Shown: positions 37,595 through 59,049 of the stretch, in pieces
Layout: every line of letters begins with the position of its first letter
Numbering within the stretch: position 1 is the first letter of the stretch
Assembly (NCBI RefSeq): GCF_000934725.1
Contig: NZ_JYNS01000003.1
Coordinates: 124,001-188,000 of the forward strand
Direction: 5' to 3'
DNA: 64,000 nucleotides
DNA from: Methyloterricola oryzae
GTDB lineage: Bacteria; Pseudomonadota; Gammaproteobacteria; Methylococcales; Methylococcaceae
Notes under the pieces: model-generated
The model's database searches: none
Told to the model about the DNA's origin: nothing
Seen by the model: the letters and a program-made list of their open reading frames with translations, nothing else
Translations under genes and position numbers: made by a program

Positions 37595-38938
37595 ATGGAT
37601 ACGCAACTGGACTGGTCGGCCTACGACAGCTACGGCGCGGGCGATGCCTACGCGGCGATCCCGGCGGAAGGCGGTTCCTATGGCAAGGCCGCCGCGGTCT
37701 GCATCGGCAACCGCCAGTGCCAGCGCAGCGATAAGGGGGTGATGTGCCCCAGCTTCCGTGTCACCGGCAATGCCGCCCATTCCACCCAACACCGGGCCGC
37801 CACCCTCAAGGCGGCGCTCAACGGTGAGTACGGCGACAAGCCCTTCCTCGGCCCGGAACTGGAAGCGGCCATGGACCTGTGCCTAGGCTGCAAGGGCTGC
37901 AAGCGCGAATGCCCCAACGGCGTGGACATGGCCCTGCTGCGCGTCGAGGCCCTGGCTCAGCGCTGGAAGCAATCCGGCGGTGCGCCCCTGCGGGAGCGAC
38001 TGATCGCCTACTTGCCGAGGCTGGGCGCGTGGCTGCCGGCCCTGAATGGGCTGCTGTCGCTGCGCGCCCGCCTGCCCTTCCTTGCGCGCCTGGGCGAACG
38101 TTGGCTGGGCATCGCCGCCGGACGCAGCCTGCCCGAGGCCGCAGGGCGAAGTTTCCTGGCGCAGGCGCCGTCGGACTTTGCCGGGAACAAGACCTCGGTT
38201 GTGCTGCTGGTGGACACGTTCTCCAACCATTACGAGCCGGAGAATGCCCAGGCGGCGGTGGATGTGCTGCGCGCGGCGGGCTATGGCGTCATCCTGGCGC
38301 GGGCACCGGCCGGCGAAAGGCCGCTCTGTTGCGGCCGTACCTTCCTGTCAAACGGTCTGGTGGAACAGGCGCGGGAAGAGGCACAACGTACGCTTCGAGC
38401 CCTGGCGCCCCTCGTTGAGCAAGGCTTCCCCGTCATCGGGCTGGAGCCCTCGTGCCTGCTGATGCTGCGGGATGAATACTATGCGCTGGGGCTCGGCGAG
38501 GATGCTGCCACTATCGCCCGCTCAGCGATGCTGCTGGAGGAGTTCCTGGCCAAGGAACACGATGGCAAGCGCCTGGAATTGCCCCTCAAGCCCTTACCGC
38601 AGGAACAGGCGTTGGTGCACGGCCATTGCCACCAGAAGGCCTTCGGCGCCATGAAACCCATGCGCAAGGTGTTGGGCCTGATTCCCGGGCTCAAAACCGA
38701 GTTCATCGAGTCCAGCTGCTGTGGCATGGCCGGCGCCTTCGGACTGGAGGCGGAACACTACGAGGTCTCCATGGCCATGGGAGAACTTGCCCTGTTGCCC
38801 AAAGTGCGTGAGGCCGACATGGACACCCTGGTGATCGCCAACGGCACCAGTTGCCGTCATCAGATCAATGATGGCGCCGAGCGCCAAAGCCTGCATCTGG
38901 CGCGGGTGCTGCGCGCGGCTCTGAACAGCGAGGCCTGA
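37595..38938 (+). CDS. Fe-S protein resembling the C-terminal half of FAD-linked dehydrogenases (CCG domains)
   Basis: 447 residues. One Cys set near the N-terminus (Cys36, Cys42, Cys51 in VCIGNRQCQRSDKGVMCPS) and a ferredoxin-like set Cys96, 99, 102 and 106 (CLGCKGCKRECP) can hold Fe-S clusters. Two CCG domains follow, with CCGRTFLSNG and SSCCGMAGAFG. This matches the Fe-S half of YdiJ/D-2-hydroxyacid dehydrogenase fusions, but the FAD-binding half is missing and no partner gene is adjacent. It should transfer electrons from a separate flavoprotein. Co-location with iscX hints at cluster supply. Confidence 0.85.
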   Translation: MDTQLDWSAYDSYGAGDAYAAIPAEGGSYGKAAAVCIGNRQCQRSDKGVMCPSFRVTGNAAHSTQHRAATLKAALNGEYGDKPFLGPELEAAMDLCLGCKGCKRECPNGVDMALLRVEALAQRWKQSGGAPLRERLIAYLPRLGAWLPALNGLLSLRARLPFLARLGERWLGIAAGRSLPEAAGRSFLAQAPSDFAGNKTSVVLLVDTFSNHYEPENAQAAVDVLRAAGYGVILARAPAGERPLCCGRTFLSNGLVEQAREEAQRTLRALAPLVEQGFPVIGLEPSCLLMLRDEYYALGLGEDAATIARSAMLLEEFLAKEHDGKRLELPLKPLPQEQALVHGHCHQKAFGAMKPMRKVLGLIPGLKTEFIESSCCGMAGAFGLEAEHYEVSMAMGELALLPKVREADMDTLVIANGTSCRHQINDGAERQSLHLARVLRAALNSEA

Positions 38939-47228: not shown

Positions 47229-47936
47229 TCAGGCTTTCGCCGCGAAAACCACCACGGGCGCCTGCGTCTGCGCCAGCACATAGCTCACCGGCCACTGCCG
47301 GTCGGGAGCCGACGATGCCTTCTCGAACACCGCCACCTTGCTGGCGCCGCCAAACTGGAGATAGATCCGGCGCGAGTGAAGAATCCAGGGCAGCGTAAGG
47401 CTCATCCGCTCGGTCGGCGCCACCGCGCCCACTTGAGCCAGGCAGGGCGGCGTATTGGCTACGGTCCCCCCGAGAGCCAGACCGGCCTCCAGTTGCGGGC
47501 TGGCCGGAAACAGCGAGGCAGTGTGGCCGTCGTCCCCCATGCCGAGTATCAGCGCCGCGAAAGGGGTGGCCAACCTGGAGAAGACCCCGGCCAATTCGGC
47601 TTCACCATCCGCCGCGGTGGCCGCACCGGTATACATCGGAACGAAGCGGGCCGCTGCGGCGCGTCCCTGAAGCAAATGGGTACGGACCAGGGCACCGTTG
47701 CTGGCTGGGTCGCTCTCGGGCACCCACCGCTCGTCGACCAGGGTGACCGCCACGCGCTGCCAGTCCAGCTCCATCTCGCGCAGGGCCTCGAACACCGGTA
47801 CCGGCGAACGCCCACCGGATACCGCCAGGGTCGCGGTTTCCTGCTCCCGCAGGGCGGCCCGCAGATCGTCAGCGACGGACGCGGCCAAGGCAGGGGCCAG
47901 CGCGGCGTTGTCGGGGAACCAATGTATGGGTGTCAT
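47229..47936 (-). CDS. pgl: 6-phosphogluconolactonase
   Basis: 235 residues of the DevB/Pgl type. It hydrolyses 6-phosphogluconolactone in the oxidative pentose phosphate pathway. LAVSGGRSPVPVFEAL, VTLVDERWVPESDPASN and ILGMGDDGHTASLFP are the family signatures. zwf and gnd are not next to it. It is the upstream end of the rraA-ispH cluster, 160 bp before rraA. Confidence 0.94.
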   Translation of the reverse strand: MTPIHWFPDNAALAPALAASVADDLRAALREQETATLAVSGGRSPVPVFEALREMELDWQRVAVTLVDERWVPESDPASNGALVRTHLLQGRAAAARFVPMYTGAATAADGEAELAGVFSRLATPFAALILGMGDDGHTASLFPASPQLEAGLALGGTVANTPPCLAQVGAVAPTERMSLTLPWILHSRRIYLQFGGASKVAVFEKASSAPDRQWPVSYVLAQTQAPVVVFAAKA

Positions 47937-48339: not shown

Positions 48340-48482
48340 TTATTGATCAGGCCCAAAAACACCCTCCTGGTATTTCGGGCCGACGCCAAGGTCGGTACGC
48401 GCCCGACCTTGGCCGGCGCGGCCTCTGGCCGCGCCGGGGCATCCGTGCCCCGCATTAACCCGGCCACTAAGGACCGGGTTAA
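48340..48482 (+). repeat. Structured interspersed repeat, copy A (five consecutive hairpins)
   Basis: 143 bp, matching 58908-59049 in inverted orientation with about eight substitutions and one indel by eye. Five hairpins follow one another: 48350-48381, 48386-48412 (CCAAGGTCGG/CCGACCTTGG), 48415-48435 (GGCGCGGCC/GGCCGCGCC), 48436-48451 (GGGGCA/TGCCCC) and 48455-48482 (TTAACCCGG/CCGGGTTAA). It begins TTATTGATCAGG. No target duplication is visible. It could be a non-autonomous palindromic element or a structured RNA. Confidence 0.88.
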
Positions 48483-48536
48483 TATTACATTTCTAAAAGA
48501 CCTCGCATTCCATCAGCCAATACGGTCGGTCGCGAC

Positions 48537-49011: not shown

Positions 49012-50964
49012 ATGAAGGACTGCCCGTCAGCGCGCCACCTGCTGTTCCTGTTTGCCTTGGCAGCCGCCCCGGCTCTGGCCAAAGACGCGCAGCACCATCA
49101 CCACGGAGCTACCCCCGCAGCGGCAGAGCCCGCGCCGCAGAAGTTCACGAGCAAAGGCGTGGTCGTGGAATTTCAGGCCAAGCCGGCCGAATCGGCCGGT
49201 GCCATCATGGAAGGTGAATACACCGACCTTAAATTCCGCGTCACCGATGCGCAGACCAAGAAACCCATAAAAGGGCGCATTCCCGGCGCCTGGATGGACG
49301 TCGCCAAGCAATTCGCCGGCAAGAATCCGGAAAACGCCAGTTGCAAGGACAAGATCGAGACCTACCTGAAGGGCATGGTGGGCGTGCGCCCCATGCTCGA
49401 CCTGAACAGCTATTACCTGCTGGTCTTCAACCAGGACGCCAGTATCTCCGTGATCGACCCCCTCGTGGGCGTCAGTGGACGGACCAACCTGTACGCCAAC
49501 ATCATCCTCAAGCGCCCGCCCGCCGACTGGATCCTGTCGAGGGACGGCAAACGGCTGTTCGTCAGCATGCCCGATGCCGGTCAGGTATCGGTCATCGACA
49601 CGGACACATTCCACGTGGTGACCGACATACCCGCAGGCACCAAACCGACCCGCCTCGGCCTGCAGCCGGACGGGCATTACCTCTGGGTCGGCAACGACGC
49701 GCCAGACGACAACCAGGGGGGCGTCACCGTTATCAATACCGATACCCTGAAACCCGCATCCCACATCGCGACCGGCAAGGGCCATCACGAACTGGCCTTC
49801 TCCGCGGACGACCGCTACGCCTACATCAGCAATCGCGAGAATGGCGGAATCTCCGTCATCGACATCCGCGATCTCAAGAAGGTGAAGGACATCAAGACCG
49901 GCAGCCTGCCCATCGCCCTGCTCACCGCGCCCGCCAGCCGCGCCATCTATGCCGCAGACGGCTTGGACGGCACGGTGACCGTGATCAGTGACGCCAGCCA
50001 GGAAGCTGTTTCCACCATCCAGGCCAAGGCGGGACTGGGTCCCATGCGCATGACGCCGGACGGCCGCTGGCTGCTGGTGCTGAACAGCAAGGAAAGCCTG
50101 GTACACGTGATCGAAGTCGCCACCAACCGCCTGGTCCAGGATATACCAGTAGGCGCGCGGCCCTTCGAAATTGCCATGAGCGACGCCTTCGCCTATGTGC
50201 GCTCACTGGATAGCGAACACGTGGCCATGATCTCCCTGGCCCAACTGGGCAAGCCTTCCGCGGTCCAGCTCAGTACCTTTACCGCAGGGTCCTCGCCGCC
50301 GAAACAGGTGGCCGATCTCGCCATCGGCAGCAGCATGGCCCCCGCCGTGGGCGAAGCCGCCATGCTCGTCGCCAGCCCCGCGGACAACCTCATCTACTAC
50401 TACATGGAAGGCATGCTGGCCCCCTCGGGCAACTTCCGCAATCCGGCCCATAGCGCGCGTGGTCTGCTGGTGGTGGACCGCAGCCTGAAGGAAACCAAGC
50501 CCGGCGAATACACGGCGCGGGTGCGGATACCCGCCTCCGGCGACTACGATGTGGCCTTCCTGCTGGAATCGCCGCGGGTCATCCATTGCTTCCAGGCGCA
50601 TGCGGCCGAGAACCCTTTGCTCAAGGTGGAGCTCAAACCACTGGATATCAACTACGTCGATCCCCAGCGCGCCGTGCTGGTGGGACAAACGGCAAAGATC
50701 AAATTCCGCCTGTTCGACCCCAAGGACAATGCGCCCAAGCCGGGCATGAACGATGTGCGCGTGCTCTATTACGCCGCGCCTGGACTGCAGCGTACCGAGA
50801 CCGCCGCCCGCGACCTGGGGGAAGGCCTGTACGAGGCGGAGCTTGCCATCAAACGTTCCGGCGCCTACTACGTCTACGTGAGCGTGCCTACACTGAAAAT
50901 GGGCTACGGCGACCTGCAGCAGATCAGCCTGATCGCCACCGAGCCGGCGAAGCCCGCGCCGTGA
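49012..50964 (+). CDS. Periplasmic YVTN/cytochrome d1-like beta-propeller protein
   Basis: 650 residues; GGAG lies 9 nt before the ATG. A signal peptide ends at APALA, and the mature N-terminus is His-rich (KDAQHHHHG), a possible metal site. Residues 45-105 look like a small beta domain. Residues 120-440 are a seven-blade-type propeller with YVTN-like repeats (VSVIDTDTFHVVTDIPAGTKP, ISVIDIRDLKKVKDIKTG). Residues 480-650 hold two immunoglobulin-like or FixH-like beta domains (TAKIKFRLFDPKDNAPKPGM). No CxxCH is present, so it does not bind covalent heme. It faces a Sco protein and a cytochrome c fusion nearby. Confidence 0.83.
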   Translation: MKDCPSARHLLFLFALAAAPALAKDAQHHHHGATPAAAEPAPQKFTSKGVVVEFQAKPAESAGAIMEGEYTDLKFRVTDAQTKKPIKGRIPGAWMDVAKQFAGKNPENASCKDKIETYLKGMVGVRPMLDLNSYYLLVFNQDASISVIDPLVGVSGRTNLYANIILKRPPADWILSRDGKRLFVSMPDAGQVSVIDTDTFHVVTDIPAGTKPTRLGLQPDGHYLWVGNDAPDDNQGGVTVINTDTLKPASHIATGKGHHELAFSADDRYAYISNRENGGISVIDIRDLKKVKDIKTGSLPIALLTAPASRAIYAADGLDGTVTVISDASQEAVSTIQAKAGLGPMRMTPDGRWLLVLNSKESLVHVIEVATNRLVQDIPVGARPFEIAMSDAFAYVRSLDSEHVAMISLAQLGKPSAVQLSTFTAGSSPPKQVADLAIGSSMAPAVGEAAMLVASPADNLIYYYMEGMLAPSGNFRNPAHSARGLLVVDRSLKETKPGEYTARVRIPASGDYDVAFLLESPRVIHCFQAHAAENPLLKVELKPLDINYVDPQRAVLVGQTAKIKFRLFDPKDNAPKPGMNDVRVLYYAAPGLQRTETAARDLGEGLYEAELAIKRSGAYYVYVSVPTLKMGYGDLQQISLIATEPAKPAP

Positions 50965-58426: not shown

Positions 58427-58907
58427 ACGGACTCCGAAGTTCGCGTTGACGTAGAAGAACGCCACGCTCAGCGGGAATCGGTTGCAGTTCGAACCTTCCC
58501 CAGGCTTCTTCCCGTTCCCGCCTCCCCGACAGCAGGAGACCAAGATTGCAAGTAGCGCGGCTTACACGGAGTCAACAGCGCAAGTTGGATGCCAGCGGAA
58601 GCAAATCATTAGATTACAATTAGTTGCATGCGATTCTGGATATCCACGAAAGAATTGTGTAAACCCCCGAAAATAAGCACACCCCTTATCAAAATCCTTC
58701 GCCATGCCTGCTCTTTACCCAGAAGGGCCTGGAACCGTGGGACTTCCAGGAGACTGCCGGCCAGAATGGGATGCCTTGTCGCGTCAAAAGCCCAGATCCA
58801 ACCCGTATCATCCGCGTGACAGCCACAGAGGAGCATATCCGCAGGATTCTGGGGGATGGGCCAATTTTCAGCGGAAACTGAAAGCCTCCGAACCTGATTT
58901 CGCACTA
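58427..58907. other. Interval upstream of the peroxidase gene, no supported gene
   Basis: About 480 bp. It should contain the peroxidase promoter near its left end. A minus-strand open frame crosses it and the repeat, but it has no start signal. Nothing else was seen. Confidence 0.45.
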
Positions 58908-59049
58908 TTAACCCGGCCCTTAGTGGCTGGGTTAATGCGGGGCACGGATGCCCCGGCGCGGGCAGAGGCCGCGTCAGCCAAGGTCGGGCTCGTACCGACC
59001 TTGGCGTCGGCCCAAAATACCAGGAGGGTATTTTGGGCCTGATCAATAA
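58908..59049 (-). repeat. Structured interspersed repeat, copy B (inverted relative to copy A)
   Basis: 142 bp. On the minus strand it begins TTATTGATCAGG and ends GGGTTAA, as copy A does. The first hairpin is perfect here (GGCCCAAAATACC/GGTATTTTGGGCC, 13 bp), whereas in copy A it is interrupted. The third hairpin is perfect in A and imperfect in B. Hairpins 2 and 4 are intact in both. Confidence 0.88.

Follow-up and report, generated by a model that had tools for sequence, protein, structure and literature searches.

A five-hairpin repeat of Methyloterricola oryzae is very probably an IS630-type MITE found in several genera of the Methylococcaceae

The window, a 64-kb stretch of Methyloterricola oryzae DNA, contains two copies of a short and highly structured element. 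Copy A is flanked by genes for 6-phosphogluconolactonase (− strand, 47229-47936) and for a beta-propeller protein (+ strand, 49012-50964); copy B has a MauG/cytochrome c peroxidase-like gene on one side and an ORF without a Pfam match on the other. Both copies are thus located between genes, as a preliminary description of this DNA had stated; neither overlaps a recognisable gene, and the element has no coding capacity. Its features are as follows.

48341-48484, + strand: element copy A including the TA at both ends, 144 bp
48343-48482, + strand: copy A, element proper without the TA
48341-48342: left TA, target-site duplication (duplication seen at other copies)
48343-48367, + strand: left terminal inverted repeat TTGATCAGGCCCAAAAACACCCTCC, 17/25 match to the inverted repeat of the candidate IS630 partner
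48350-48381, + strand: hairpin 1 (H1), loop CTCCT, from folding of copy A
48385-48413, + strand: hairpin 2 (H2), from folding of copy A
48415-48435, + strand: hairpin 3 (H3), from folding of copy A
48436-48451, + strand: hairpin 4 (H4), from folding of copy A
48454-48483, + strand: hairpin 5 (H5), the right inverted repeat with its own reverse complement, from folding of copy A
48458-48482, − strand: right terminal inverted repeat, − strand reading TTAACCCGGTCC..., 13-15/25 match in copy A and 18/25 in Methylocaldum copies
48483-48484: right TA, target-site duplication (duplication seen at other copies)
58906-59048, − strand: element copy B, in the opposite orientation to copy A

Folding of copy A gave exactly five consecutive hairpins, the number originally described for a 143-bp element whose coordinates proved correct to within 1-2 bases. 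Hairpins H2 to H5 are perfect or nearly so, whereas H1 is imperfect in copy A and perfect in many relatives. An end repeat and the reverse complement that follows it form H1 at one end and H5 at the other, and three more palindromes lie between them. The minimum free energy was −83.8 kcal/mol (z = −7.4) for the + strand and −95.2 (z = −6.7) for the − strand, and none of 200 dinucleotide-preserving shuffles folded as well as copy A. When 887 sliding windows of 144 nt were folded across the 64 kb, the lowest energy fell on copy B; another low-energy window, at 38017, was set aside as GC-rich, single-copy and lacking inverted repeats. Copy B corresponds to the inverted second copy reported about 10.4 kb away: the two form inverted-repeat arms of 132 nt that are 93% complementary and 10,421 nt apart, and over the whole element they are 94% identical.

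The nucleotide search for further copies that had been proposed as a check gave 30 match places in the Methyloterricola oryzae genome (4.9 Mb, 73 contigs). These represent about 26 confident elements at unrelated sites, as in two cases a pair of places belongs to one copy with an internal deletion, and the final two matches are marginal. Beyond this genome, the element was present in 8 of 60 related genomes, belonging to five further genera of the same family (9 of 61 genomes and six genera with its own included), and was missing from all 24 genomes that represent the order's other families. Methylocaldum sp. 14B has dozens of copies, and Methylococcaceae MAGs also carry them. A scan of 84,980 species for an exact 25-base motif found it only in Methylocaldum sp. 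14B, two Methylococcaceae MAGs and a MAG labelled Methyloversatilis. Transfer to the Betaproteobacteria, which that last label would imply, was rejected: the flanks of the copies in this MAG match those in genome G030, and our genome set places G030 in the genus of Methylocaldum 14B. The public MAG concerned, Methyloversatilis universalis TT109_59_23 (DYIL01000004.1, DYIL01000038.1; loci L113, L115 and L127), seems to be a member of the Methylocaldum genus and carries the same contig as G030:C66. Plasmid and phage collections gave no match to the element.

Alignment of the oriented copies revealed sharp boundaries, TA-TTRATCAGGCC...GGCCGGGTTAA-TA, beyond which the flanks were unrelated, and imperfect terminal inverted repeats (TTRATCAGGCC / TTAACCCGGCC). 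All 89 selected non-redundant copies had TA at both start and end, in a set chosen by an end pattern that itself contains TA and that 96 of 111 near-full-length copies passed. Since the end-finding step had demanded TA, empty sites provide the independent evidence for its duplication. The copy at L041 sits inside a different dispersed repeat, which also occurs in dozens of uninterrupted copies; in three of these (L202, L073, L120) the junction has the sequence CATTAATCG or CATTAATTG, with a single TA; likewise, comparison of the occupied locus L096 with its empty counterpart L083 showed a single TA in the empty site. The only preference in the flanks was for T at −1 (72%) and A at +1 (66%), base usage being flat further out. 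A high-copy dispersed repeat, GGCATTCGAGTGAACATTAATCGTAGGATGGGTAGAGCGAAGCGAAACCC, occurs in genomes of the Methylocaldum genus (at many places in G014, G021 and G026), with the element inserted in one copy. Several ORFs next to the element (at L004, L039, L069, L072, L085, L093 and L129) end 6 bp inside it, from which it appears that its TTAATAA/TTATTAA ends may supply a stop codon to adjacent genes.

A scan for the IS630 DDE domain gave several matches in relatives. One genome, G013, has five identical insertion sequences of 1,116 bp with 25-bp inverted repeats (terminal inverted repeat TTAACCCGGCCATAAAATACCGTAC) and TA flanks; each of the five identical transposase genes lies between two inverted TATTAACCCGGCC motifs that are 1,116 bp apart end to end. 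The 345-aa transposase matched the IS630 family NF033545 (NCBIfam) at 1.5e-70 and DDE_3 at 6.6e-41, and winged-helix domains were detected too. An 82% relative in G027 ends in TTAACCAGGCAACATAATACCGTAC and TTAACCCGGCCATGAAATATCGTAC, and its left end (TTAACCAGGC) differs from its right end (TTAACCCGGCC) just as the left end of the five-hairpin element (TTAATCAGGCCCGTAAATACC) differs from the right (TTAACCCGGCCTATAAATA), with A on the left and C on the right (CAGG vs CCGG). Left ends of the element matched the insertion sequence ends at 17-18 of 25 positions and the right end in Methylocaldum did so at 18, where shuffles scored 7 on average; the right end of copy A matched at only 13-15 of 25, and the best terminal identity anywhere was 72%. 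The Methyloterricola oryzae genome itself gave no DDE_3 match and no match to the partner transposase at 1e-20, and the draft assembly of Methylocaldum 14B yielded no intact insertion sequence with these exact ends. Mean identity among copies was 98.2% for the Methylocaldum 14B type and 87.0% in the Methyloterricola oryzae genome. The expansion in Methylocaldum 14B looks recent; the copies in Methyloterricola oryzae, given their 87% identity and a genome without a transposase of that group, are probably relics.

The dispersed copies, the sharp ends, the TA duplication with its empty sites, the inverted repeats in common with an IS630 element and the existence of an intact transposase relative together make it very probable, on sequence grounds, that the element is an IS630/Tc1-mariner-type MITE of the Methylococcaceae moved by a separate IS630-family transposase. 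On the same evidence, the suggestion of a non-autonomous mobile palindromic element was well founded. We infer that a transposase of the G013 type moves it in trans. A transposase from another IS630 group than the G013/G027 clade, which is rather unlikely, would agree with terminal identities of just 17-18/25 and with the presence of other IS630 transposases in Methylocaldum genomes, of which the one in 14B, with 33% identity, has different ends. However, the G013 clade was the only one found with ends sharing TTAACC[C/A]GGCC and AAATACC at the same spacing and with the same left/right asymmetry, and isolate 16, which has many copies of the element, holds a 77%-identical C-terminal transposase fragment adjoining a TTAACCCCGGCC end. 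Several palindromes in a dispersed, intergenic repeat would also be expected of a REP/BIME-like element that is moved as a single strand by a hairpin-recognising Y1 (RAYT / IS200-IS605) transposase. That route is exceedingly improbable here, as a TA target duplication and terminal inverted repeats common with a DDE IS630 element are foreign to it, and the GTAG tetranucleotide of REP-type hairpin bases was not seen in the sequence.

The preliminary description had offered a structured RNA family as its other possibility. We considered this as a gene for an sRNA or regulatory RNA whose fold is what is conserved and which is multicopy by chance. The strong fold on either strand would suit such an RNA, and sRNAs derived from MITEs are known in Coxiella (PMC5896051). 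Across 43 diverse copies 92.5% of cells were paired, and seven pairs had changed on both sides, with 28 such cells against 9 in shuffles; however, few of these double changes were independent, most being two inherited between-genus differences in H2, and the RNAalifold covariation term was −0.06. H4 was paired in only 71.7% of cells, leaving about 28% unpaired, and was broken in many isolate-16 copies. Among the Methyloterricola oryzae copies, stems had diverged less (about 0.02-0.09) than loops (about 0.08-0.28), a pattern in the fold's favour, but the loops, where an RNA would bind its partners, were thereby the most variable parts. Rfam gave nothing at gathering scores and only sub-threshold matches at chance level with permissive thresholds. 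With crude ORF calls, orientation to genes was unbiased (16 convergent, 23 divergent, 17 tandem same and 20 tandem opposite) and there was no clear preference for gene ends. As the TA duplication and the empty sites also mark the element as mobile DNA, we consider the RNA family very unlikely; as a general property of the copies, this half of the earlier proposal was neither needed nor supported. A CsrA/RsmA sponge, considered from AGGAG in the H1 loop and CANGGAUG in H4 on the − strand, was not supported: among the Methyloterricola oryzae copies the loops of H4 (0.132) and H1 (0.088) diverge more than the stems (0.024-0.086), and the broken H4 copies of isolate 16 also undercut it.

The difference between stems and loops is consistent with weak selection on the fold and also with correction of one arm by the other at the DNA level, and the hairpin pattern needs no RNA function. 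Loops were found inverted between intact arms in H1 at L085 and L097 and in H5 at L079 and L093; in genome G003 the H5 loop at L216-L218 and L220 is inverted relative to L211, again between intact palindromic arms. These inverted loops suggest a hairpin- or cruciform-mediated inversion. Taken with the lower divergence of stems and the compensatory changes in the arms, they allow a speculative reading, to which we give little weight: processing of extruded hairpins in DNA, by arm-to-arm correction and loop inversion, might keep the arms matched, so that the MITE gains and maintains a series of distinct palindromes. Each end repeat would then be enclosed in a hairpin of its own, which might regulate the access of transposase.

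For the MITE itself we propose the following route. A separate insertion sequence, for which the 1,116-bp element of G013 with its 345-aa DDE transposase is the candidate, would make an IS630-family transposase that recognises the terminal inverted repeats of the MITE and then excises it. The excised MITE would go into a TA, preferably within T-TA-A, and this TA would be duplicated. The five hairpins would arise from the pairing of each end repeat with its own reverse complement and from the three palindromes between, and would be part of the anatomy of the DNA; if transcribed, they would be expected to fold strongly in either direction. Cut and paste is the presumed mode of movement, by analogy with ISY100 of the IS630 family, for which cut-and-paste transposition with insertion at TA has been shown in vitro (PMC2170065), and the chemistry of the MITE is expected to resemble that of ISY100. 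IS630 insertion sequences such as this one have a DDE transposase, a TA target duplication and short inverted repeats, of which the last two are common to the five-hairpin MITE; the insertion sequences are autonomous, whereas the MITE is without a gene.

A close parallel is the RUP element of pneumococcus, an intergenic MITE of about 107 bp with about 108 copies and a TA target duplication, whose inverted repeats resemble those of the IS630-family element IS630-Spn1, its proposed mover (PMC2229807, PMC3049150). The logic and the type of evidence are the same as for the five-hairpin MITE; however, RUP is AT-rich and forms a single tight fold in which its two ends are paired, whereas our element is G+C-rich and has a hairpin of its own for each end with three more between. 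The Correia or NEMIS repeats of Neisseria are also small and TA-ended, with inverted repeats of 24 bp and transcripts that fold and are proposed targets of RNase III (PMC2229807); in contrast to the five-hairpin MITE, they form a single end-to-end stem loop and have other inverted repeats. According to the review of Delihas, known MITEs usually fold into a stem loop in which the two ends pair; CIR of Caulobacter and Brucella is an exception, with local arms in place of a single end-to-end stem (PMC2229807). CIR resembles our element in these local arms, but consists of two arms plus a GANTC-containing linker and has no inverted repeat at its ends, whereas those of the five-hairpin MITE are clear.

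A literature search, with subscription papers and ISfinder outside its scope, found no report of a MITE in Methylocaldum or the Methylococcaceae. The family is new, its kind is well known and its multi-hairpin anatomy is modestly unusual, providing an example of an IS630 MITE whose ends lie in separate hairpins and not in one end-to-end stem. The Methylococcaceae, which include biotechnologically used methanotrophs, thereby gain a MITE family for which a candidate transposase can be named, and in which a recent expansion (Methylocaldum 14B, with copies 98% identical) and a relic state (Methyloterricola oryzae) can be compared. For annotation, it accounts for the strong secondary structure at about 26 intergenic places in the Methyloterricola oryzae genome, which might otherwise be taken for RNA genes.

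Several variants and related sequences were also observed. Two copies lie head to tail at the Methylocaldum locus L117, and internal deletions have removed one or two of the five hairpins while keeping both ends at L227-L229 in G026 and at L022 and L024 in Methyloterricola oryzae. Genome G026 also has a second MITE, of 116 bp (L223-L226 on G026:C1, e.g. 1328066-1328181), which folds end to end. Its ends, TATTAATCCGGCCC / TATTGACCCGGCCC, are related to those of the five-hairpin element, but its interior is different and is built on an inverted GTTCGCCCTGAGCTTGTCGAAGG repeat. In the same genome four end-repeat motifs, TATTGACCCGGCC, occur at a spacing of about 1,486 bp (G026:C1:4467026-4471499), suggesting a tandem array with one MITE end per unit. 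A lone 34-bp palindrome in G003 (L219, G003:C56:12888-12921) is the same as hairpin 5, with TA on both sides and no recognisable element adjoining it, and may be either a remnant or a mobile unit of minimal size.
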